Of a DNA stretch of 64,000 nucleotides, positions 11,891-31,944 are shown one piece after another; the first letter of the stretch is position 1, and each line of letters opens with the position of its first letter. The notes beneath the pieces are model-generated. The model worked only from the letters and a program-made list of their open reading frames with translations, ran no database searches and was not told where the DNA came from. Source of the stretch: Archangium gephyra (GTDB taxonomy: Bacteria > Myxococcota > Myxococcia > Myxococcales > Myxococcaceae); contig NZ_CP011509.1 in NCBI RefSeq assembly GCF_001027285.1, positions 1,682,501 through 1,746,500 on the forward strand. Reading direction: 5' to 3'. Made by a program: the position numbers and the translations under genes.

Positions 11891-14197
11891 ATGGACTCTC
11901 CGCCGATGAACGACACCCCCCCGTTTCCCCGCCTCCTCGGACGCTACGAGCTCGTGCACCTGCTCGGGCAGGGCGGCATGGGCGAGGTCTATCTCGCCAA
12001 GATTTCGGGCGCGGCCGGCTTCGAGAAGCCCTGCATCGTCAAGACGATCCTCCCCGCGCTCCTCAAGGACGTGCAGTTCCTGGATCGCTTCCACCACGAG
12101 GCCAAGGTGCTCGTGCACCTCGTCCACTCGTCCATCGCGCAGGTCTACGACATGGGCGAGGCCGAGGGCACCTACTACATGGCCCTCGAGTACGTGGCCG
12201 GCGTGGACCTGTCCTTCCTCCAGGACCAGGCGCGCAACGAGGGCCAGCAGATCCCCGTCCCCGTGGCGCTCTACCTCGGCCAGCGCATCGCCGAGGGGCT
12301 CGGCTATGCCCACCGCAAGACGGGCCCGGACGGCTCGCCACTGGGCATCGTCCACCGCGACGTCTCGCCCCACAACGTGATGCTGTCCTACGAGGGCGAG
12401 GTCAAGGTCATCGACTTCGGCCTCGCCAAGAGCGCCGCGCGCAGCAAGTACACGCTGCCGTCCACCGTCATGGGCAAGCTGGGCTACATGTCCCCGGAGC
12501 AGGTGCGCGCCGAGGCCGTGGACCACCGCAGCGACATCTACTCCTGTGGCGTGGTGGTGTGGGAGCTGCTCGCGGGCCGCCCCCTCATCCGCCATGGCAC
12601 GGTGGGCGAGATGATGGCCGCCATGTCCAACCCCCGCGTGCCCGCGCTGCACGAGGTGCGTCCAGACGTGGACCCCGCCCTCGACGCGGTGGTGCGCCGC
12701 GCGCTGGCGCCCTCGCCCGAGGACCGCTACGCCCGCTCCGACGACTTCGCCCGCGCCCTCAACGAGCAGCTGCTGCGCTCCGGCTCCTCCCTCGGTGCCG
12801 AGGAGGTGGGCGACTTCGTCCGCACGCTCTGCCCGCAGGCCTTCGCCGCACAGCGCCAGCTCATCTCCCGTGTCTCCTCCAGCCCCGGAGTGCGCCGCAC
12901 GCCCCTGCCCGGCGGCTCCCTGGTGCCCATGAATGCCGACGCGCCCGTGAACACCGGGCGCCTCTCCCCGCTGCCCCTGCAGCCGCCCTTCGCCACTCCC
13001 GCCACCGGCTACGAGCCCACCATGGTGCGCTCGCCCAGCACCACCGCGACTCCCGCGGTCGGCGGCGTGCCCGCCCCCGTGCCGGCCGAGACGCTCCAAC
13101 TGGAGAAGAGCTCCCACGGGCCCGGCCGGAAGGGGTGGACGGCGGCGATCGCACTCGGGGCCCTCGGGCTGATTGGCGCCACCGCGGGCGTCACCGCGTT
13201 CCTGATGAACCAGCCGCCCGAGCACCCGCCTCGGCCGGCGTGGGCCGCCGAGGGACCGGGGCATGATGGGCCTCCGCGGCCGCCTCCCCCGGGCATGGGG
13301 CCTCCCCCTCACGAGCTGCACCCCCCGCCTCCCGGCATGGGGCCTCCGCATGAAGAGGGCCGTCCCATGCCCGGTGGTCCCCAGGCCGTGGCCGAGGCGC
13401 CCCAGACTCCCGACGCGGTCGAGGCCCTCGAGCCGCCAGAGGACGCGGGCGCGCCCACCGAGCCCGAGGTGGAGGCTGAAGCGGAAGCTGATGCTGATGC
13501 GGAGGCCGAGGCGGCGCAGCCCGCGAAGCCCAAGCCGTCCGAGTCACACGCTCGCCCGCAGAAGTTCGTCCCGGCGGAGCACGTGGCGTTGCTGAGGAAG
13601 TCGAATCGCGATGACTACTTCCGCGTCGACCGTGGGCGGCTCGCGGGGCTCTCCATGGGAATGGTCCTCCAGGTGGTCGCCGCGCCGGTGAAGGACGGCA
13701 AGGCGCGGCTGCTGGGCGAAGCGAAGGTGCTGGATGTGAGGCCGGGGCGCTCGACGCTGAGCGCCGACGCGCGTGTGCGCAACGCGGGCAGGGTGGAGCT
13801 CTACGTCGTGCTCCCCAGGGGCACCAGCGCGGGCGCCAGGTCCGAAGCCTCCGAGTCCGAGCCCCAGGCCGGCACCGCCACGCCGCCCGCGGAGGTGGCC
13901 CCCGCGCCGACGCCCGCGGAGCCCCGGCGGTTGAACGGCCGCATCCGTCTCACGGGCATCCCCCCCTTCAACCAGAAGATCGAGCTCACCAGCACCGACA
14001 CCGTCCTCTGGAGCGGCTGCATCCTCGTCGCCAATGGACGGGACATGTACAAGCTCGGCGGTATGGCTCCCGGTGGCGTGCGGGAGATCCCCGTGAACGA
14101 GTTCAAGAAGGGCGGCCGGGACGTGCCCTTCGTGGGCAAGGGCCGGTTGGGTCTCTTCTGCGTCGAGGGGACCAAGGAGTTCCCCGCGAAGCTGTGA
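11891..14197 (+). CDS. Membrane-anchored Ser/Thr protein kinase (PknB-like)
   Basis: A 768-residue eukaryotic-type kinase. The kinase domain (~residues 18-300) has the glycine loop GQGGMGEVY (26-34), the VK lysine (Lys51), HRDVSPHN (155-162; the usual LKPEN is replaced by VSPHN, as in many myxobacterial kinases) and DFG (175-177), with activation-loop threonines and SPE. A linker, one transmembrane helix (~415-438) and Pro-Gly-His- then Glu/Ala-rich low-complexity stretches follow. The outer part has a ~90-residue region (YFRVDRGRLAGLSMGMVLQV) that looks like a small beta domain, and ends in a second beta-like segment rich in Gly/Lys. Downstream targets are unknown. The ATG at 11906 is an alternative start. 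Confidence 0.9.
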   Translation: MDSPPMNDTPPFPRLLGRYELVHLLGQGGMGEVYLAKISGAAGFEKPCIVKTILPALLKDVQFLDRFHHEAKVLVHLVHSSIAQVYDMGEAEGTYYMALEYVAGVDLSFLQDQARNEGQQIPVPVALYLGQRIAEGLGYAHRKTGPDGSPLGIVHRDVSPHNVMLSYEGEVKVIDFGLAKSAARSKYTLPSTVMGKLGYMSPEQVRAEAVDHRSDIYSCGVVVWELLAGRPLIRHGTVGEMMAAMSNPRVPALHEVRPDVDPALDAVVRRALAPSPEDRYARSDDFARALNEQLLRSGSSLGAEEVGDFVRTLCPQAFAAQRQLISRVSSSPGVRRTPLPGGSLVPMNADAPVNTGRLSPLPLQPPFATPATGYEPTMVRSPSTTATPAVGGVPAPVPAETLQLEKSSHGPGRKGWTAAIALGALGLIGATAGVTAFLMNQPPEHPPRPAWAAEGPGHDGPPRPPPPGMGPPPHELHPPPPGMGPPHEEGRPMPGGPQAVAEAPQTPDAVEALEPPEDAGAPTEPEVEAEAEADADAEAEAAQPAKPKPSESHARPQKFVPAEHVALLRKSNRDDYFRVDRGRLAGLSMGMVLQVVAAPVKDGKARLLGEAKVLDVRPGRSTLSADARVRNAGRVELYVVLPRGTSAGARSEASESEPQAGTATPPAEVAPAPTPAEPRRLNGRIRLTGIPPFNQKIELTSTDTVLWSGCILVANGRDMYKLGGMAPGGVREIPVNEFKKGGRDVPFVGKGRLGLFCVEGTKEFPAKL

Positions 14198-17778: not shown

Positions 17779-19422
17779 ATGAAGAAGCATTGGGCAATCG
17801 TGCTGCCGCTCCTGGTCGTCGGATGCACGCCGGAGGACAAGGATGGAGATGGCATCGCCGACGGGGTGCGCGATCCGGACTCCGTGACGGTGGTGGTCCC
17901 GGCCACCCCCCAGGGGACGGTCTCCGGCCAGGTGCTCAACACCCGGATGGAGCCGCTCGCCGACGCCAAGGTGAAGCTCACCATCGGCAGCGCCACGGCG
18001 GAGAAGCCCTTCGAGACGACGACGGACGCCTCGGGCAACTTCCTCCTCACCCACGTGCCGGCCGGCTCCGAGGTGCTGGTGACCGTCAGCAAGGAGGGCC
18101 ACGCCACGCTGCGCGCCAGCGCCCTGGTGCCCTCCCACGCGGGCAACATCCCCATCAACAACGGCAACGCCAACATCGGCGCCATCGCCCTCGCCGAGAC
18201 GAAGAGCAGCGTGAGCTTCTCGCTCGTCACGCCCTCGGGCTACCCCGCCCGCGGCGCCAAGGCGTACGTCGAGGCCGTCCCCGCTGGCACCATCGCCTTC
18301 AACGGCGGCACGGCCTCGGCCGTCAGCTCGGTGGTGGTCACCGCCGAGGCGGATGCCCTGGGGGTCGTCACCTTCCCCAACGTGCCCTCCCCCGCGGAGC
18401 TCGCGCGCATTGGCGGCGTGGGTGAGGCCGCCGGTGGCTACCGCGTCTGGGTGGATCCGGTGGACTACAACAACGACGGCATCTTCGACGCGGGCGGCTA
18501 TGCGCAGAAGATCGACGCCGCGACGCTGGTGGTGAGCGGCGGCTCGCAGATGCTGCGGCTGCCCGCCCCGCGCAACGACTCCGGCGGCACGGGAGCCACG
18601 GGCTTCCAGCTCGTGGCCACCAACGTCCCCAGCCTCAACTACGTGAAGCTGGCGGATGGGGATGCCGCCAGGCCCGCCATGGAGCTGCAGAAGAAGCCCC
18701 TGCGCAACCTGGTCCGGCCCGGCGAGCCCATCTACCTGGGCTTCAGCCAGCCCGTGGCCCGCGAGTCGCTGCTGGCGCTCGTGGCGGACGAGTACGGCCG
18801 CGAGAAGTACGACGTCATCGTCACGGCGAGCGCCGCCGGGGACATCTACACGCTCATGCCCCCCGCCTCCATCCGCGAGGGCGTGGAGTACAACATCATC
18901 CTGCGCGCCACCTCGGCGTATGACGGCACCGTGCGCACCTGGAAGGGCTACTTCATCAGCGGGGACCCCAGGACTCCCCGGCCGCTGCAGCTCGCCACCG
19001 CCGTCTACAAGGATGGGGGCACCGGCACCGTCGGCACCCTGGACCCGGGCGAGTGCATCATCCTCAGCTTCAACCAGGCCGTGCTGCCCTCGGCCACGCT
19101 GCTCGACGCCGTCGTCACCACGGGCGAGGCCAGCCCGCCGTCCTTCAAGGCGGCGCCCGCCGCTCCGCCCTCCACCAACCCCTGCTTCACCGCGGAGTCG
19201 CCGACGAAGTACCCCATCGACTCCACGAACTTCAACGAGACCACCACCCGCTTCGTCTTCACCTACAGCGGCGCGGCGATCAACCTCACCACCTTCACCG
19301 TCAAGGTGAAGGCGGATTTCACGAGGTTCCAGTCCTCGGACCTGTCCACGTATTACGAGTCCGCCTGGGGCACGCCCGTGTCCTCGGGCACCAGTCTCGA
19401 GGCGCCGCTGGGCAAGCTGTAG
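17779..19422 (+). CDS. Lipoprotein with carboxypeptidase-regulatory-like domain
   Basis: A 547-residue secreted lipoprotein (MKKHWAIVLPLLVVGC). Directly after the lipid cysteine is an acidic calcium-like loop (EDKDGDGIADGV). A carboxypeptidase-regulatory/CNA-B-like beta sandwich follows (~residues 47-115, GTVSGQVLNTRMEPLADAKV, FLLTHVPAGSEV), and a second Asp-rich segment near DYNNDGIFDAGG. The C-terminal half contains two Ig-like regions, one with the phrase FSQPVARESLLALVADEYGR typical of Big_5-type bacterial Ig domains. It is probably a surface adhesin or structural lipoprotein. Cysteines near the C-terminus (ECIILSF, NPCFTAE) could pair. Ribosome site GTGGGAAG precedes the ATG. No enzyme motif seen. 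Confidence 0.8.
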   Translation: MKKHWAIVLPLLVVGCTPEDKDGDGIADGVRDPDSVTVVVPATPQGTVSGQVLNTRMEPLADAKVKLTIGSATAEKPFETTTDASGNFLLTHVPAGSEVLVTVSKEGHATLRASALVPSHAGNIPINNGNANIGAIALAETKSSVSFSLVTPSGYPARGAKAYVEAVPAGTIAFNGGTASAVSSVVVTAEADALGVVTFPNVPSPAELARIGGVGEAAGGYRVWVDPVDYNNDGIFDAGGYAQKIDAATLVVSGGSQMLRLPAPRNDSGGTGATGFQLVATNVPSLNYVKLADGDAARPAMELQKKPLRNLVRPGEPIYLGFSQPVARESLLALVADEYGREKYDVIVTASAAGDIYTLMPPASIREGVEYNIILRATSAYDGTVRTWKGYFISGDPRTPRPLQLATAVYKDGGTGTVGTLDPGECIILSFNQAVLPSATLLDAVVTTGEASPPSFKAAPAAPPSTNPCFTAESPTKYPIDSTNFNETTTRFVFTYSGAAINLTTFTVKVKADFTRFQSSDLSTYYESAWGTPVSSGTSLEAPLGKL

Positions 19423-19647: not shown

Positions 19648-20115
19648 ATGACCTTACCGCTCACGCAAACCCTCGAAAACAGGCTGCATGACGGCGGCGA
19701 GCCGTCCGAGGCGGCCAACACGGTCGAGCGCCGGCGCGTGCTCGTGGTCGACGACTTCGACGATGCCCGCGAGATGTACGCGGAGTACCTGGAGTTTGTC
19801 GGCTTTCAGGTAGAAGTGGCCCGCAATGGGGTCGAGGCGGTGGAGAAGGCCCAGGGTGTCCTACCGGACATCATCCTGATGGACCTGTCGCTGCCGGTGA
19901 TGGATGGCTGGGAGGCCACGCGCCGGTTGAAGCAGGACCAGCGCACCCGGGACATTCCGGTGATGGCGCTCAGCGGCCACGTGCTGGCGGGCAACGCGGA
20001 GCAGGCCCGGCAGGCCGGGGCGGACGAGTTCGTGGCCAAGCCCTGCCTGCCGCAGGACCTGGAAGACCGCATCCGCCGGATGCTCAAGCCCAGCAAGTCG
20101 AAGAGCAGCCCCTAG
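19648..20115 (+). CDS. Single-domain response regulator
   Basis: A 155-residue receiver protein with no output domain. The fold markers are present: VLVVDDFDD (acidic pocket), MDLSLPVMDGWEA with the phosphoacceptor Asp, a Ser switch in MALSGH and the invariant Lys in FVAKPC. A ~28-residue N-terminal tail and a basic C-terminal tail (LKPSKSKSS) flank it. Such stand-alone receivers relay phosphate or bind a partner. It stops 21 bases before the GTG of the kinase/nSTAND/FGE gene, so the two are probably an operon, giving a possible link between His-Asp and Ser/Thr signalling. The ATG at 19648 was chosen; the frame is open further upstream. Confidence 0.9.
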   Translation: MTLPLTQTLENRLHDGGEPSEAANTVERRRVLVVDDFDDAREMYAEYLEFVGFQVEVARNGVEAVEKAQGVLPDIILMDLSLPVMDGWEATRRLKQDQRTRDIPVMALSGHVLAGNAEQARQAGADEFVAKPCLPQDLEDRIRRMLKPSKSKSSP

Positions 20116-20136
20116 CGCACAGGGACGAACGAGCCC

Positions 20137-23100
20137 GTGGGCCCTCCGCCTGCAATCCGGTCCAGCGTCGACGGGTGGACTCCACCCGAGGCGTTCGACG
20201 AGTACCGCCTGGTGCGCCTCATCGGTCATGGCGCGACGGGACGCGTGTACCTCGCGCACGACACCCTGCTCGACAGGCCGGTGGCGGTGAAGTTCGTGCG
20301 CGCGCTGGGCTCCGGCGCGCTCGCGCGTTTCCTCGTGGAGGCCCGGGCCGCGGCGCGTGTCCAGCACCCCCACGTCGTCACCCTCTACCGGGTGGGGCAG
20401 CTGGAGAACCACCCCTACCTCATCTCCGAGTTCATCCGCGGCACCTCGCTGGACCGGCTGCCCCGGCCCATGCCGTGGGAGCGCGTGCTGGCGCTCGGCA
20501 GGGACCTGGCGCGGGGGCTGGGGGCCGCGCACCGGCGTGGCGTGCTGCACCGCGACATCAAACCCGCCAACGCCCTGCTCACCGAGACGGGTGAGGTGAA
20601 GCTACTGGACTTCGGGCTGGCCAAGCTGCTGGACGCGGACGCTCCCCGCGACGAGGACTCGCCGCCCGACGTGCTCCCGGGCCCTCCGCCCTCCCTGCCC
20701 GAGCTGGACGCGGACAGCGTGGCGGGCTCGCTCGACGGGGTGGATCTGCCGTCGCTGCCCGCGGGCATGCTGGTGGGCACGCCCTATTACATGTCCCCGG
20801 AGGCCTGGGCCGGGGAGGAGCTCACCGCGCGCAGCGACGTGTACTCGCTGGGGCTGGTGCTCTACGAGCTGTGCGCCGGCCGCGGCCCCTTCCGGCACGT
20901 GCCCCTCAAGGAGCTCTCCCATGCGGTGCGCACCCAGGACGCGCGGCCGCTGGCCGAGGCCGTGCCGGGCGTGGACCCGGACTTCGCGGCCGTGGTGGAC
21001 CGGTGCCTGCGCCGCGCGCCCGAGGAGCGCTTCGCCTCCGCCGTGCCGCTGCTGGATGCGCTGGAGCTGCTCTCCCGCGACGAGTGGGCGGGCGCCGTGC
21101 CCGAGGGCAATCCCTACCGCGGCCTGCAGGCCTTCGAGGCCGAGCACCGGGCCCTCTTCTTCGGCCGGCAGCGGGAGCAGCGCGAGGTGATGAACCGGCT
21201 CCGGGCCGAGCCCTTCGTGCTCGTCGCCGGGGACTCGGGCGTGGGCAAGTCCTCGCTGTGTCTGGCCGGCGTGCTACCCCGGGTGACCGATGGGGCGCTG
21301 GAGGACGGGCGGCGCTGGCGCGGGGTGCGGCTGATTCCGGGACGGCGTCCCGCGGCCGCGCTCGCCGCCGCGTTGGCTCCCGTGCTGGGCGCCGACGAGG
21401 AGGGACTGGTGGCCTCCCTGCGCTCGGACCCCACGGGGCTGGCGCGCCGGCTGCGGGCCTCGCTCGGCGCGGAGCAGGGGCTCGCCCTCTACGTGGACCA
21501 GCTGGAGGAGCTGGTGACGCTGGCGGGGGAAGCGGAGGCCGCGCAGGCGGGGCTCGCGCTCGGGGGACTGGCCGAGGGCGTGTCCGGCGTGCGCCTGCTG
21601 GCCACCTGCCGCAGTGACTTCCTCACCCGCCTCACGGCGGTGCCGGGCCTGGGCGCGCTGGTGCCCGGGGCCCTGTACCTGCTGCGGGCGCTCGGCCCGG
21701 AGGAGATTCGCGAGGCGGTGGTGGGCCCGGCGCGGGTGACGGACGTGCGCTTCGAGTCCGAGGCCCTGGTGGATGCGCTGGTGGCCTCGGCCGCCGGGGG
21801 CGGGCTGCCGCTGCTGCAGTTCGCGCTCGCCGAGCTGTGGGAGGCGCGCGACGTGGACGCGGGCCTCATCACCCAGGCCGCGCTGGACGGGCTGGGGGGC
21901 GTGGCGGGCGCGCTGGCCATGCACGCGGACGCGGCCATGGCGCGCCTGCTGCCGGATCAACGCACGGCCGCGCGCGGCGTGCTGCTGCGCCTCATCACCC
22001 CGGAGGGCACCCGGGCGCGCAAGACGGGCCAGGAGCTGGTGGGTGATGACCCCCACCACCGCGCGGTGCTGGAGGCGCTGGTGCGCGCGCGCCTGCTGCT
22101 GGCGCGGGAGGTGGATGGCGGCACTTCCTATGAGGTGGCCCACGAGGCGCTGCTGACGGGGTGGGGCACCCTGGCGCGCTGGCTGGCCGAGGCCGCCGAG
22201 CTGCGCGAGGTGCAGGCCCGGCTGGAGGCGGACTCCGCCCACTGGGAGCGCGTGGGCCATGTGCGGGACATGCTCTGGAGCTCCCGGCAGCTGGCCGAGG
22301 CCGCCCCGCTCGACCGGGAGCAGCTCACCCGCCGCGAGCTGGCCTTCCTGGAGGCCTCGCGCCGCACCGTGGTGCGCAGCCGCCGCATGCGCCGGGCGCT
22401 CGCCGTGGGCTTCGTCCTGTCGCTGGGGCTCGTCTACGCGGGGCTGCGGATGCACGAGGCCGCGGTGCGCGACCGGGCCGTGCGCGGCTGGCTGACGGAG
22501 GCCGCCACCGCCATGCACGAGGTGCAGCGCGAGCGCACGGCCTTCTCCACCGCGCGCGAGGAGGCGCTGGGCCACTACGACGCCGGCCGCAAGGAGCAGG
22601 GCGACGCGGCCTGGGCGCGCACCACGCTCGCGGAGGCCGTGCTGCACCGGCGCCTCGACGAGGCGGGGGACCACCTGGAGCACGCGCTGGTGTTGGACCC
22701 CATGCGCGAGGACGTCCGCGCCGCCCTGGCCGACTTCCTCCTCGAGCGGGCCCTCCACGCCGAGCAGGCGCTGGAGACCAGTGAGCTGACGGCACTGCTG
22801 CAGCGGCTGCGGCTGTATGACACGACGGGCGAGCGCTGGCGGCGCTGGACGTCTCCCGCGCTCGTCACCCTGGAGCTGCCCGTCCCCGGCGCGGTGCTGG
22901 AGCTGCGGCCCGCGTCCCGGGACGTGGAGGGCCGGGAGACGATTGGCGAGCCGGTGCCGATGCCGCCGGGGCCCTGGGTGGACGTGGCGGTGCCACCGGG
23001 CGACTGGCGGCTGACGGTGCGTGCCCCGGGTTTCGAGCCCGCGCTCGTCCCGCTGCGCCTGGCGCGAGGGGAGCGCCGGCGCCTGGCCCCGCCGCTGTTG

Positions 23101-23949
23101 CGCCAGGGACAGGTGCCCCTGGGCTTCGTCTACGTCCCGCCGGGGCGCGTGCTCTTCGGCAGCGCGGCGGATGCGAGCGTGCGCGGCTTCTTCAACGCCG
23201 TGCCGCTGCACGCCAAGGAGACGGCGGGCTTCCTCATCGCCCGCCAGGAGACGACGTACACGGAGTGGCTGACCTACCTGGAGTCGCTGCCCGCGGCCGA
23301 GCGCGTGCGCCGCCAGCCGCGCACGAGCACCACCTACCACGGCATGCTCCGGCTGGCGCGGGAGCATGGCACCTGGACGCTGCGCTTCCAGCCCGGCGGC
23401 GTGCCCTACACCGTGCGGGTGGGCGAGCGGCTGCGCTACGCGAAGCGGGACCGGCGGGTGGAGCAGGACTGGACGCGCTTCCCCGTCACCGGCATCTCCT
23501 TCGAGGACGCGGAGGCCTACGCGGCCTGGCTGGACAAGACGGGCCGCGTGCCAGGGGCCCGGCTGTGCACGGAGCTGGAGTGGGAGCGCGCCGCGCGGGG
23601 CGAGGACGGCCGCGAGTTCCCCCACGGTGACGCGCTCGCCCCGGACGACGCCAACGTGGACCTCACCTACGGCAAGGAGCCCGGGGGCTTCGGCCCCGAC
23701 GAGGTGGGCGCGCACCCGGCCTCCCGCAGCCCCTTCGGCGTGGACGACCTGGCCGGCAACGCGTGGGAGTGGACGCGCTCGTCGCTGGAGCCCGGCAACG
23801 TGGTGGCGCGTGGAGGGGCCTATTACTTCGCCGCCGCCTCGGCGCGCCTGGCCAACCGCGAGATGCCCGAGCGCACCCTGCGCAACATCACCGTGGGCAT
23901 CCGCCTGTGCGCCGACCTGCCCTCCGGGGAGGCCTCCCCTCGGAAGTAG
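20137..23949 (+). CDS. Ser/Thr kinase - nSTAND1 NTPase - FGE-fold fusion protein
   Basis: A 1270-residue three-module protein with a GTG start. Module one is a Ser/Thr kinase (residues ~23-315; GHGATGRVY, Lys52, HRDIKPAN 138-145, DFG 158-160, TPYYMSPEAW), with a ~45-residue acidic/proline insert in the activation region. Module two begins with NPYRGLQAFEAEHRALFFGR (325-344) and a P-loop GDSGVGKSS (365-373), the hallmark of novel STAND NTPases, up to ~750. A single membrane helix follows (~751-772). Module three (~990-1260) is a formylglycine-generating-enzyme/sulfatase-modifying fold (RLCTELEWERAARG, GNAWEWT), but the active-site cysteine segment before the C-terminus reads YYFAAASARL with no Cys, so it is probably a binding domain. 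It is a likely signal receptor. Confidence 0.9.
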   Translation: MGPPPAIRSSVDGWTPPEAFDEYRLVRLIGHGATGRVYLAHDTLLDRPVAVKFVRALGSGALARFLVEARAAARVQHPHVVTLYRVGQLENHPYLISEFIRGTSLDRLPRPMPWERVLALGRDLARGLGAAHRRGVLHRDIKPANALLTETGEVKLLDFGLAKLLDADAPRDEDSPPDVLPGPPPSLPELDADSVAGSLDGVDLPSLPAGMLVGTPYYMSPEAWAGEELTARSDVYSLGLVLYELCAGRGPFRHVPLKELSHAVRTQDARPLAEAVPGVDPDFAAVVDRCLRRAPEERFASAVPLLDALELLSRDEWAGAVPEGNPYRGLQAFEAEHRALFFGRQREQREVMNRLRAEPFVLVAGDSGVGKSSLCLAGVLPRVTDGALEDGRRWRGVRLIPGRRPAAALAAALAPVLGADEEGLVASLRSDPTGLARRLRASLGAEQGLALYVDQLEELVTLAGEAEAAQAGLALGGLAEGVSGVRLLATCRSDFLTRLTAVPGLGALVPGALYLLRALGPEEIREAVVGPARVTDVRFESEALVDALVASAAGGGLPLLQFALAELWEARDVDAGLITQAALDGLGGVAGALAMHADAAMARLLPDQRTAARGVLLRLITPEGTRARKTGQELVGDDPHHRAVLEALVRARLLLAREVDGGTSYEVAHEALLTGWGTLARWLAEAAELREVQARLEADSAHWERVGHVRDMLWSSRQLAEAAPLDREQLTRRELAFLEASRRTVVRSRRMRRALAVGFVLSLGLVYAGLRMHEAAVRDRAVRGWLTEAATAMHEVQRERTAFSTAREEALGHYDAGRKEQGDAAWARTTLAEAVLHRRLDEAGDHLEHALVLDPMREDVRAALADFLLERALHAEQALETSELTALLQRLRLYDTTGERWRRWTSPALVTLELPVPGAVLELRPASRDVEGRETIGEPVPMPPGPWVDVAVPPGDWRLTVRAPGFEPALVPLRLARGERRRLAPPLLRQGQVPLGFVYVPPGRVLFGSAADASVRGFFNAVPLHAKETAGFLIARQETTYTEWLTYLESLPAAERVRRQPRTSTTYHGMLRLAREHGTWTLRFQPGGVPYTVRVGERLRYAKRDRRVEQDWTRFPVTGISFEDAEAYAAWLDKTGRVPGARLCTELEWERAARGEDGREFPHGDALAPDDANVDLTYGKEPGGFGPDEVGAHPASRSPFGVDDLAGNAWEWTRSSLEPGNVVARGGAYYFAAASARLANREMPERTLRNITVGIRLCADLPSGEASPRK

Positions 23950-24084: not shown

Positions 24085-25110
24085 ATGCGTGCAAGCAAGT
24101 GGTGCCGGATCGTGGTGGCGGCCGTGGGCGTGGTGGGGTGTGGAGGCGAGGCGCCGGTGCGGCCGGAAGCCCCCCTCGGAGAGGCCGGTTCCTCGCTGAG
24201 CGCACGCAATGGCGCCAACCTCAATGGCGCCAACCTCAATGGTTCGGACTTGAATGGCTCGGACCTCAACGGCTCGGACCTCAACGGCCAGACCCTCTCG
24301 GGAATGCTGGTGTCGGTGGACTTCGAGGGCGCGTGGTTCGAGAACGGGCAGCAGTCCTTCTGGCCGGGCCAGACGTCCACGTGGAACCCGGCGAGCCTCG
24401 AGGAGGTGTGGCTGGAGGGCTCGACCTTCCACGGCTGGTATGACGGGCGCCACCTCTTCGGACAGGACTTCGTGCAGGCGCACTTCCTGGGCAACCTGGG
24501 GAACGGGAGCCAGGTGGAGCTGCGCGTGGACGCGGCGACCCAGGGCGAAGGCGCGAACGCGGACGTGTGGCGCTACCTGGTGTCGTATCACTCGCCGGTG
24601 GACGGCCAGTGGCGTCCCATCTGCCTCGACGCGAGCGGACAGCCGGCGGCGGCCATCGCCGTGGGAGGCTACTGGGACTACCGGCAGGGGATGCCGGGCG
24701 TGGGCGGCAGGAAGTACGAGGACCCGCGCCTCTTCACCTTCGCGTGCGAGGGCGCGGCGATCGCGAAGTGCATCCGCTTCGGTTACAAGCCGTGGGCGAG
24801 CGTCGGGGGCGTGAGCCTGGCGGCGCACCACCAGGCGTGCACGCGCCTCATCCGCGCGGACTACTGCGGCGATGGCACCTCGCACACCGTGAACGGGCAG
24901 TGGGTGAACGTCTACGACGCGGTGGGCGTGCAGCAGGACACGGAGACGTGGGGCACGGAGGCGGAGTGGGGCACCGACGGGGCGCTCTGCTTCACGGACC
25001 ACAACCGGGCCCATGCGCCGGTGTCGTGCCCGGACGCTCCCAAGAAGACGCAGTGCGGCACGGCGGAGGCCTTCTCCTCCGGCACGCTGCTGCAGAGCGA
25101 GACGCCGTAG
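24085..25110 (+). CDS. ADYC-domain lipoprotein with pentapeptide-like repeats
   Basis: A 341-residue secreted lipoprotein (lipobox VGVVGC). Residues ~43-72 are a run of five-residue units of the form (A/S)(N/D)LNG encoded by a 15-base tandem repeat. The rest matches the ADYC-domain family, named for the IRADYCGDG motif present here (nt ~24859), with conserved FACEGAAIAKC and WGTEAEWG segments and several paired cysteines. The family is common in myxobacteria and has no known biochemical function. The next gene encodes another lipoprotein with an almost identical signal region (GVVGVVGCG), 70 bases downstream, suggesting a two-gene unit. Confidence 0.85.
   Translation: MRASKWCRIVVAAVGVVGCGGEAPVRPEAPLGEAGSSLSARNGANLNGANLNGSDLNGSDLNGSDLNGQTLSGMLVSVDFEGAWFENGQQSFWPGQTSTWNPASLEEVWLEGSTFHGWYDGRHLFGQDFVQAHFLGNLGNGSQVELRVDAATQGEGANADVWRYLVSYHSPVDGQWRPICLDASGQPAAAIAVGGYWDYRQGMPGVGGRKYEDPRLFTFACEGAAIAKCIRFGYKPWASVGGVSLAAHHQACTRLIRADYCGDGTSHTVNGQWVNVYDAVGVQQDTETWGTEAEWGTDGALCFTDHNRAHAPVSCPDAPKKTQCGTAEAFSSGTLLQSETP
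24211..24300 (+). repeat. 15-base tandem repeat in lipoprotein gene
   Basis: Five consecutive 15-base units (GGCGCCAACCTCAAT twice, then GGTTCGGACTTGAAT, then GGCTCGGACCTCAAC twice) plus a degenerate sixth (GGCCAGACCCTCTCG). They encode a GANLN/GSDLN ladder. The repeat keeps the reading frame in any copy number, so length can vary without breaking the gene. Confidence 0.85.
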
Positions 25111-29950: not shown

Positions 29951-31051
29951 ATGGTGAGAGTAGACGCCATGGGGATGAGCTCGAGTCTTGGCCCCGTGGT
30001 GACTGCCGCTGCTGCCTTCCGAGCCGGCATCGTCCGGCCAAGGACTTCGGTGGATGTCGCCACCTTCGCTCCTGGTGACAGGGAGCCCCAGCCTGTCACC
30101 GTCTACGAGTTGCCAGGAGCGACCCTGGGCTTCTCGGGAGTCGGCCGGCTCGTCGCCGTTGCCATGGACGCCCTCGAGGATCTCGCGACGTACGTCCCTC
30201 TGCGGACGCTCGGACACGAGGCGGGAGTCTTCCTTGCTGTGCCCGACTTCTCGAATGGCATGGAATCGCAAGAGGCCGCAACGGCCGCCGGGCGGTTGGG
30301 GCACCAGGTGATGGGGCGGGCATTGGACGGGCTCGGACTGTCCTGGCCCGAGGACCGGTGGCGCTTCTTCACGGGAGGCTCCGCTGGCTTCGCGCTCGCA
30401 CTCAAGGCCGCACTCCGTGAGATGGAGCGCGGTGCCCTGGAAACGTGCATCGTGGGCGGGCTCGACTCGCTGGTGCATCCGGAGCACCTTCGATACTTGT
30501 TGGGCGAGCGTCGGCTCAAGACGGCGAACAACCCGGTTGGGCTGCTCCCCGGTGAAGCGGGTGCTTTGCTGGTGCTCCGCTCGCGCCAGCCAGTCAAGAA
30601 GTCCGAGGTGACTCCAGCCATCGAGTTCACCGCCGTCCATGTCGCGCACGAGCCCAACTTCCTGGGGACCGGTCGCCAGCCAGATGGCAGGGTGCTCTCC
30701 TCCTGTGTTCAGGCCGTGCTTGGGGCGTCTTCCTCCAAGGGCCGCGAAGTTCTCCTCGTGTCCGATATCAATGGGGAGGAACGGCGCGCCTGGGAATGGG
30801 GGAATGCATTGGTGCGCTTGAAGGCGAGTGGTGCCTTGCACGGAGAAGAGCCGGTTTGGGTTCCAGCGACGGGCTTCGGGGATGTGGGGGCCGCAGGGGG
30901 GGCGGTGGGGGCTTGTCTCGCGGTCCGTGCCTTCCAACGTGGCTATGCGCCGGCTCGTCGGAGCGTTGTGGTCTCGCAAGCGGACTCGGGAGAACGCGCT
31001 GCGTTCGCGCTGGTGGTTTGTGACAGCCCAGGACGAGGAGGTCGAAAATGA
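29951..31051 (+). CDS. Ketosynthase-like (thiolase-fold) protein of a toxin cassette
   Basis: A 366-residue protein with a beta-ketoacyl-synthase fold. The helix that normally carries the active-site cysteine reads FFTGGSAGFALALKAA, with Ser/Gly where enzymes have TACSSS, and LLPGEAGALLVL matches the usual GEGAGALVL. Without the nucleophile it cannot be an ordinary synthase. Thiolase-like proteins of this kind occur beside DUF2169, DUF4150 and effector genes in type VI secretion cassettes, where an accessory or chaperone role is suspected. Its TGA overlaps the toxin ATG by four bases (ATGA), supporting coupling. The 366-residue length is slightly short of a full ketosynthase. Confidence 0.8.
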   Translation: MVRVDAMGMSSSLGPVVTAAAAFRAGIVRPRTSVDVATFAPGDREPQPVTVYELPGATLGFSGVGRLVAVAMDALEDLATYVPLRTLGHEAGVFLAVPDFSNGMESQEAATAAGRLGHQVMGRALDGLGLSWPEDRWRFFTGGSAGFALALKAALREMERGALETCIVGGLDSLVHPEHLRYLLGERRLKTANNPVGLLPGEAGALLVLRSRQPVKKSEVTPAIEFTAVHVAHEPNFLGTGRQPDGRVLSSCVQAVLGASSSKGREVLLVSDINGEERRAWEWGNALVRLKASGALHGEEPVWVPATGFGDVGAAGGAVGACLAVRAFQRGYAPARRSVVVSQADSGERAAFALVVCDSPGRGGRK

Positions 31052-31944
31052 CGGGCACGTTCAAGACCCTCATGCAGGGCTCCTTCGAGCTATACGGACA
31101 TGCCGTTGCCGATGGCCGGCCCAACATTCGTGACTTCGGCCCCACGCCTGCCAGTTCGGGCGCGATGAAGCGCAATGTCGCGCGCAAGCAACAGGTGAAG
31201 GACACGAAGGAGCGGCGTAAGGCGAAGGAGAACGGTGCACAAGAGCCCGCGGGCCCACATGCCAACTCCCTGGATGAATACCGGGCCATCCTCAGCAAGG
31301 GCACTTTCTACGCCCGCAGCGCCGCGAAATACATCCGCGCCAACCATGCTTCCGAATACAACGCCTTCCCGCACCTGGGGCCTGTGGCCTTTCGTGCGGA
31401 GGTCACGGCCCAGGCGGGCTTCTCCCAACCGTCCAACTTCAATCCTGAATTCAGCGGTCAGCAGCAGCCCTACCGATGGCAGGCCCATCACCTCATTCCG
31501 GGTGAGGCCTTCTACACGGAGGACTCCAACGGCGTACCCATCTTCGACAAGCCGGACAACTTCAAAATCCTGCTGCAGACGCCCTACGACATCGACCACG
31601 GGCACAACCTGATCATCCTGCCGAGCGAAGCCTGGGCCGTTCCCGTGCACGCGCTGCTTCAGCATCCCAACAACCACAACAACTACACGATGGATGTCAT
31701 GCAAGGGTTGAAGCGTATCGACTCGGGAATCGATACCCTTCGTGGTCAGGGCAAGCCCCATGAGGCCATTGTTGCCAACGTGTTCCAGGAGTTGAAGGAC
31801 CTGGAGACCGAGCTCTGGGAGATTCTTCTTGAGGAATCACGAGCAGCTATTCGCGGTGCCGCCGAGGGGCATCGTTACGACGGACCCTGGTGCCGCTGGA
31901 AGACTCAGGGGGGCAGGGAGTACATCTGGCCGGCGCTCTGGTAG
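31048..31944 (+). CDS. AHH-motif nuclease toxin (probable type VI effector)
   Basis: A 298-residue predicted nuclease toxin. The C-terminal half carries the AHH signature WQAHHLIPGEAF (Ala146-His147-His148), followed by DHGHNLIILPS (183-193) and HALLQHPNNHNNY (201-213), the His/Asn-rich metal and catalytic sites of the HNH/AHH fold. The N-terminal ~140 residues have a very basic stretch (KRNVARKQQVKDTKERRKAK) and no signal peptide or known trafficking domain. So it is probably loaded as cargo, fitting the adjacent DUF2169/DUF4150 genes. It is translated from an overlap with the ketosynthase-like gene, and an Imm11-like gene follows 18 bases later. Confidence 0.85.
   Translation: MTGTFKTLMQGSFELYGHAVADGRPNIRDFGPTPASSGAMKRNVARKQQVKDTKERRKAKENGAQEPAGPHANSLDEYRAILSKGTFYARSAAKYIRANHASEYNAFPHLGPVAFRAEVTAQAGFSQPSNFNPEFSGQQQPYRWQAHHLIPGEAFYTEDSNGVPIFDKPDNFKILLQTPYDIDHGHNLIILPSEAWAVPVHALLQHPNNHNNYTMDVMQGLKRIDSGIDTLRGQGKPHEAIVANVFQELKDLETELWEILLEESRAAIRGAAEGHRYDGPWCRWKTQGGREYIWPALW

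Follow-up and report, generated by a model that had tools for sequence, protein, structure and literature searches.

Myxobacterial Ser/Thr kinases encoded together with two-component parts are familiar from EspA with PktA2 and PktB2, a resemblance to the cassette described below in which EspA is a hybrid histidine kinase whereas the cassette has a lone receiver, and to our knowledge the inputs of myxobacterial Ser/Thr kinases of such a kind are mostly unknown. PorK/GldK is a secretion structure that, unlike the cassette, is not known to include a kinase or an NTPase. Conflict systems typically show a patchy and fast-changing occurrence, and it is with such systems that the most similar proteins have been grouped. 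Kaur, Iyer, Burroughs and Aravind 2021 (eLife, PMC8195603), in the sections of that survey concerned with FGS domains, describe proteins of conflict systems in multicellular bacteria that carry N-terminal S/T/Y kinases, a central NTPase that can be of the nSTAND1 type, and an FGS domain. The corresponding sections of Kaur 2020 (PMC7159879) and Dore 2024 (PMC10907252) present FGS domains as binders of invaders that are often hypervariable. Chlamydial kinases with a C-terminal DUF323/NirV domain, which has the fold of the formylglycine-generating enzyme (FGE), were in print by 2005 (PMC1262709, in its account of these kinases), and the titles of PDB entries 9mzu and 9p6h place the FGE fold of PorK/GldK in complexes with the partner protein PorN. 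As summarized by Whitworth and Zwarycz 2020 (PMC7694542), nearly all two-component genes of the Myxococcaceae are core genes. The kinase-STAND-FGE architecture has thus already been described in outline (Kaur 2021, PMC8195603, same sections), and no title on this gene was found among the open-access titles listed on kinases with formylglycine, kinomes and crosstalk. Neither "ADYC domain" nor "PF20032", nor any link between a kinase and ADYC, was found in the open-access literature, and the association with an ADYC lipoprotein reported here is apparently new.

The window, by which we mean the whole stretch of 64,000 nucleotides that was analysed, covers positions 1682501-1746500 of the 12.49 Mb, single-contig genome of Archangium gephyra, and its features of interest are listed in Table 1. 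Pfam profile searches, hydropathy and coordinates bear out the layout proposed in an earlier, sequence-only reading of this DNA, namely a stand-alone receiver and, 21 nt beyond its stop, the GTG start (20137) of one protein that fuses a Ser/Thr kinase, an nSTAND1 NTPase, a membrane helix and an FGE fold. To this layout can now be added helical and PEGA-like segments that precede the FGE fold, and a conserved ADYC gene just downstream.

Table 1. Features of the receiver-kinase-ADYC locus and of a candidate partner gene elsewhere in the genome (positions are those of the window unless another locus is named)
Feature	Position	Strand	Support or remark
Carboxypeptidase-regulatory-like protein gene	17779..19422	+	Syntenic neighbour; control gene, outside the claimed mechanism
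Receiver gene, single-domain response regulator, 155 aa	19648..20115	+	Response_reg E = 2.1e-25 (Pfam)
Receptor-type kinase protein, 1270 aa	20137..23949	+	Kinase - nSTAND1 - TM - helical - PEGA-like - FGE-like
Ser/Thr kinase domain, residues 23-300	20203..21036	+	Pfam Pkinase 5.3e-41
nSTAND1 NTPase, residues 326-708	21112..22260	+	PF20703 1.6e-97; Walker A GDSGVGKSS, Walker B-like VDQLEE
Single transmembrane helix, residues 754-772	22396..22452	+	Hydropathy scan; positive side inside
Helical segment and PEGA-like beta domain, predicted extracytoplasmic, residues 776-985	22462..23091	+	AlphaFold2, mean pLDDT 94.2
FGE/C-type-lectin-like domain, residues 997-1257	23125..23907	+	PF03781 (FGE-sulfatase) 2.3e-31
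ADYC-domain (PF20032) lipoprotein gene, N-terminal pentapeptide-like repeats	24085..25110	+	Pfam ADYC 2.3e-57
HisKA/HATPase histidine kinase gene	L166:8552-10410 (G000:C1 about 3735551-3737409; ~3.735 Mb)		Receiver gene overlap 4 nt

The kinase protein, whose closest named matches are in Archangium violaceum (94%) and A. lansinium (90%), has all the marks of a Hanks-type kinase (the fold, the VAIK Lys, the catalytic RD/N and the DFG); among 49 aligned family members, the window protein counted, K52, N and DFG are retained in 49/49 and RD in 48, with CD in the remaining one. Its NTPase matches PF20703 with 328 bits (cut-off 27.1) over model positions 1-376 of 379 and is thereby an nSTAND1 domain, with the Walker A GKSS again retained in all 49. 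A transmembrane helix is seen in 11 of the 12 members that were scanned (the window protein among them), and the RSRRMRR directly before it predicts an N-in/C-out topology. For residues 776-1265, AlphaFold2 (38 alignment rows) returns a helical stalk, a small beta domain and an FGE fold at a mean pLDDT of 94.2. The label PEGA-like for the beta domain comes from a PEGA match in the relative L213 (E 9e-4, below the cut-off); the window protein itself has no PEGA match in Pfam at E <= 1.

That the C-terminal domain has the FGE fold is found alike with Pfam, a HMMER alignment, AlphaFold2 and Foldseek, the last giving a best E of 8.2e-15 against FGE-fold structures, with matches that include FGE, ToxD, PvdO, EgtB, PorK and a Treponema variable protein. 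The two catalytic, copper-binding cysteines of FGE are absent from the ectodomain. A HMMER alignment with human FGE (1y1e) puts the position of its first catalytic Cys in an F/Y-type column, where the window protein has F, and that of the second within a 3-residue stretch that is missing from the family profile; not one of the 48 aligned members that have the region carries a Cys at the first position, and L158 has one three residues before it. The loss of the catalytic cysteine, as claimed earlier, is thus confirmed, and the suggestion that the fold serves as a ligand-binding sensor gains support, since the fold is kept and the cysteines are lost: the degenerate FGE fold is likely a binding or sensor domain. 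With their motifs retained, the kinase and NTPase look active, and with the FGE cysteines lost, the ectodomain looks like a binding domain. The identity of the FGE domain to orthologues outside the genus is 63-79%, compared with 74-83% for the kinase domain.

With the FGS-STAND proteins of Kaur 2021 (PMC8195603) the cassette shares the order of effector or kinase, STAND and FGS/FGE fold, and the occurrence in multicellular bacteria; it differs from them, as far as the FGS sections of that paper describe them, in the membrane helix that is predicted to place the FGS fold outside, in its presence throughout eight genera, and in having a receiver and an ADYC lipoprotein as conserved neighbours. 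No match to an EAD adaptor was obtained in the kinase protein or in the scanned window neighbours with Pfam, which may not hold all EAD models. The DGR-diversified sensors treated in Dore 2024 (PMC10907252, passages on these sensors) likewise place an FGE-type C-type-lectin fold, the presumed sensor, after nSTAND1, whereas the cassette has a conserved FGE domain (dN/dS 0.30) and an intact kinase in place of EAD8; the hypervariable repeat of the diversified lectin sensors is lacking, the FGE domain being conserved across orthologues. The chlamydial kinases also join a kinase to a C-terminal FGE-fold domain, and nSTAND1, receiver and ADYC are not mentioned in their description (PMC1262709, same account). 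PorK/GldK, lipoproteins belonging to the type 9 secretion ring (PDB 9mzu, 9p6h), share the FGE fold, with Foldseek E of 1e-11 to 7e-11.

The ADYC gene begins 135 nt past the kinase gene, and a separate promoter is possible; a promoter/terminator scan near the kinase and ADYC genes found no pattern. Its product scores 194.4 bits against the ADYC profile (cut-off 27) and so belongs to PF20032, and a lipobox following a hydrophobic stretch is seen in 56 of 67 homologous loci, some species being counted twice. The lipobox, together with the predicted N-in topology of the kinase protein, would place ADYC and the FGE-like domain alike in the envelope. The AlphaFold2 model of ADYC (mean pLDDT 62) gave no Foldseek match at E <= 0.001, and with VIA-align 2 no row exceeded Z 3.0; the ADYC profile, run against the PDB, finds designed and natural pentapeptide-type repeat proteins, matched through the N-terminal part. 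It also finds ribosomal protein eS1, with E values no better than 0.08. PADLOC has no match for the ADYC protein.

The main reading that we draw from this locus, to which we would give a probability of roughly 0.55, is that it encodes a receptor-type Ser/Thr kinase cassette in which the FGE-like head binds the ADYC lipoprotein and the receiver is a later, second input. The FGE-like ectodomain would bind ADYC as a ligand, co-receptor or inhibitor; an envelope event would alter this contact, and the signal would cross the membrane, upon which the NTPase may switch or oligomerise, bringing kinase domains together for the phosphorylation of cytoplasmic targets. As for the receiver, which a single clade acquired about once, its Asp would be phosphorylated by a histidine kinase encoded elsewhere, and the receiver would either modulate the Ser/Thr kinase or be modulated by it.

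The tie between ADYC and such kinases extends well beyond the window. We took eight genomes of one or two contigs, with all of their 53 ADYC matches, and as a proxy for the receptor the 40 listed open frames of at least 1000 aa that contain an FGE domain (shorter frames being dropped, and kinase and nSTAND1 being checked in some of the 40). A long-frame FGE is found within 8 kb of at least 41 of the 53 ADYC genes, as against a mean of 0.44 and a maximum of 4 in 2000 random placements; the count is a lower bound because FGE frames under 1000 aa were dropped and the FGE matches were taken from the listed part only. Viewed from the other side, an ADYC gene is present by 37 of the 40 listed long FGE frames, and one of the three without is the paralogue in G047. 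The 12 remaining ADYC loci were all fetched. L213 proved to hold a full kinase-nSTAND1-FGE gene, which brings to 42/53 the ADYC genes no more than 8 kb from this family, and seven others (L202, L215-L218, L221, L223) adjoin one other Ser/Thr kinase family of about 1090-1150 aa, whose kinase domains at L215-L218, L221 and L223 are 71-87% identical to that of L202; the three of these seven that were scanned (L202, L215 and L216) have TPR matches, and FGE was not found in them. At L214 another kinase lies 1.6 kb upstream, at L219 a kinase match is 6 kb off, and at L220 and L222 there is no Ser/Thr kinase in the stretch of ~15 kb examined. Altogether 51/53 ADYC genes are within 8 kb of some Ser/Thr kinase, where ~20-25% would be predicted from the kinase density of the window genome, which has at least 150 kinase-domain matches. 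Left out of the 53 were 11 ADYC genes from nine draft genomes, of which four are by a long-frame FGE or a kinase-nSTAND1-FGE gene (G084, G006, G007, G147), three are at contig ends, and four have no Ser/Thr kinase match within the contig stretches examined. At L206 (G161) the neighbours of an ADYC gene are a receiver gene and the gene of an FHA-GAF-HisKA histidine kinase, rather than a Ser/Thr kinase gene.

Since ADYC also adjoins a kinase family whose three scanned members showed no FGE, adjacency by itself does not single out the FGE fold, and this bears on what we regard as the best-surviving, if rather unlikely, alternative, that several Ser/Thr kinases have ADYC as an exported output or as a protein on their substrate side, controlled together with them and not a partner of the ectodomain. 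The varying position of ADYC, which in some paralogues is upstream of or convergent with the kinase gene and elsewhere downstream, would also suit such a role. What speaks against it is that ADYC co-diverges with the FGE domain rather than with the kinase, the NTPase or the control protein. Over 26 orthologue loci the distances of ADYC correlate best with those of the FGE domain (r 0.90), followed by the receiver (0.87), nSTAND1 and the helical stalk (0.85 each), the kinase (0.79) and the PEGA-like domain (0.78); given receiver and kinase, the partial correlation (23 loci) is 0.63 for FGE compared with -0.14 for the control protein at 17779-19422, and at ten well-separated loci FGE (0.83) is the top correlate of ADYC in 10/10 jackknifes. 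As the pairs are not independent and the species few, such co-divergence is suggestive and does not amount to proof. In places the ADYC tree departs from the kinase tree, and we claim no congruence: the ADYC of L150, L082 and L087 are placed among the receiver-clade ADYC and their kinases are not. Receiver-clade ADYC are clustered on their tree (5 changes, shuffled mean 12.6) but do not form one clade, and two of the rows labelled "other" inside this cluster, L080 and L090, come from orthologues that lack upstream sequence, which is not so for L082, L087, L150 and L151; owing to long branches, the deep part of the ADYC tree is unsafe. The record L063 (BNCN01000008.1), titled Comamonas sp. KCTC 72670, sits within Myxococcus on both the kinase and ADYC trees and for that reason is probably mislabelled.

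A kinase-protein match at E <= 1e-100 is present in 92 of the 145 genomes of the order, and one of at least 66% identity in 64/64 genomes of eight genera (g1, g4-g8, g19, g20), these being the genera where the orthologue was found; the remaining 32 genomes of the family (18 genera) have weaker matches or none. The match is incomplete in three of the 64, namely in G071 and G121, where the contigs are short, and in G075, where it ends near residue 850. From its presence in all 64, the kinase gene belongs to the shared genome of these eight genera, and Myxococcus xanthus is among the carriers of the unit (L093). Comparison with two congeners gives the kinase protein a dN/dS of 0.22-0.25 and the receiver one of 0.10-0.14; relative to L061 dN/dS is 0.09 for the kinase, 0.10 for the receiver, 0.20 for nSTAND1, 0.30 for FGE, and 0.40 both for the stalk with the PEGA-like domain and for ADYC, so that the parts predicted to be exported evolve faster, without hypervariation.

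These figures weigh upon a second alternative, a STAND-type conflict system (anti-phage or cell-death) in which FGE would sense an invader, the NTPase would assemble and the kinase would be the effector. It has precedents in the proteins of Kaur 2021 (PMC8195603, FGS sections), where FGS, NTPase and S/T/Y kinase are combined and lone receivers occur in related systems, and in the nSTAND1 and FGE antigen sensors of Dore 2024 (PMC10907252, passages on these sensors), where some DGR targets are predicted to be periplasmic. Against these precedents stand the occurrence, which is the opposite of patchy (64/64 genomes of eight genera, with conserved neighbours), the conservation of the FGE domain under purifying selection, and the PADLOC matches listed for the kinase protein (25 of 32), which are kinase profiles. 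We consider a conflict role improbable here, and of the earlier proposal of a signalling or defence-like STAND system, the signalling module stands and the defence part is not supported. A PADLOC run over the receiver-kinase pair and ten window proteins gave kinase, ABC and OmpA/MotB-like matches and no system, which lends phage defence no support; with NCBIfam, nothing rose over a curated cut-off among the 25 of 96 receiver matches listed or among all 19 matches of the kinase protein.

In 29 of the 30 best orthologue loci examined the receiver is on the same strand, 21-141 nt upstream of the kinase gene, the exception (G109) having it 1,716 nt away, and in loci from named genomes, mostly of the same species, the receiver accompanies 26/26 orthologues that have upstream sequence (at 2,207 nt in L074). 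The sequence-only reading had named the absence of the pair from related genomes, or catalytic cysteines upon closer alignment, as grounds for giving it up, and neither was seen. Of the 30 best orthologue loci, 29 have enough room downstream of the kinase, and 26 of these carry ADYC there; the three without it (L037-L039) are all of genus g6 and retain the FGE domain. A congener of these, the G075 orthologue (L153:3893-6469), has no FGE part and no adjacent ADYC. Judged from the 64/64 presence and the dN/dS values, the receiver-kinase pair is not a chance arrangement. The trio of receiver, kinase and ADYC is also found at the 57% paralogue (L141, L154), where in the same genome a further receiver gene overlaps the kinase gene by 4 nt and an ADYC gene lies alongside, and at a relative in another family (L149), with 50-52% identity. 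That receiver and ADYC are neighbours through history only, the kinase acting alone, is quite improbable: gene order can survive without function in vertically inherited regions, and the upstream carboxypeptidase-regulatory-like gene is syntenic too, but the trio persists at the paralogue and in the other family, where that upstream gene has no match in the fetched stretches (L141, L154, L149), and 51/53 ADYC genes have a Ser/Thr kinase within 8 kb, against the predicted ~20-25%.

Returning to the cassette as a receptor-type kinase with two inputs, the tree of 49 kinase proteins puts the 33 receiver-bearing ones within a clade of 35 (SH-aLRT 100), with two changes of the receiver label against a shuffled mean of 13.6, which suggests that the receiver was gained about once and mostly kept thereafter; its retention agrees with the core status of two-component genes in the Myxococcaceae. 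ADYC is probably the wider and older partner of the kinase. The receiver has the fold, acidic pair, acceptor Asp, Thr/Ser and Lys of a response regulator, and no output domain. Among 51 distinct cassette receivers D36, D79 and K131 are invariant, D35 is present in 50 and S/T at 109 in all, and D79 is the predicted phospho-acceptor. No histidine kinase was found among the nine window neighbours and three further window proteins that were profile-scanned. The genome has 93 receiver matches, the best being the window receiver itself and the second the receiver of the 57% paralogue; the third-closest, 60% identical to the window receiver, overlaps the HisKA/HATPase kinase gene at 3.735 Mb (Table 1), and this pairing makes that kinase a candidate donor to the Asp. 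The link between His-Asp and Ser/Thr signalling that had been proposed is upheld to the extent that conserved gene order can suggest it.

In the window genome each of the four kinase-nSTAND1-FGE genes (one is frame-shifted) has an ADYC gene beside it, and the fifth and last ADYC gene adjoins another Ser/Thr kinase; per genome, ADYC genes number up to eleven. It is a tentative thought that ADYC and kinase-nSTAND1-FGE proteins form a paralogous ligand-receptor repertoire of the Myxococcota, each kinase reading its own ADYC on the same or a neighbouring cell; if true, social behaviour in these bacteria would involve an analogue of receptor kinases that have extracellular ligands of their own. The proposed two-input cassette would give ADYC, a domain family without an assigned role, its first testable context, suggest what the degenerate FGE fold of such receptor kinases may bind, and offer an example of how a His-Asp input may join a Ser/Thr receptor kinase once and then persist.

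A few other observations were made in passing. The frame-shifted paralogue (L143:7574-11496; G000:C1 9763573-9767495) is split in two frames inside nSTAND1, a pseudogene or a sequencing error being among the possibilities. Within the window, a further Ser/Thr kinase gene (768 aa) is at 11891-14197, ~5.5 kb 5' of the receiver, and an AHH-nuclease-like gene, possibly of a polymorphic toxin, is at 31048-31944 in a patch of lower GC (~64% GC, 30-34 kb). The two ends of the contig share 4131 identical bases, at 5.5-9.6 kb and 12.4755-12.4797 Mb (L006, L007; offset 12,470,002), so the record may give a circular genome whose ends overlap.
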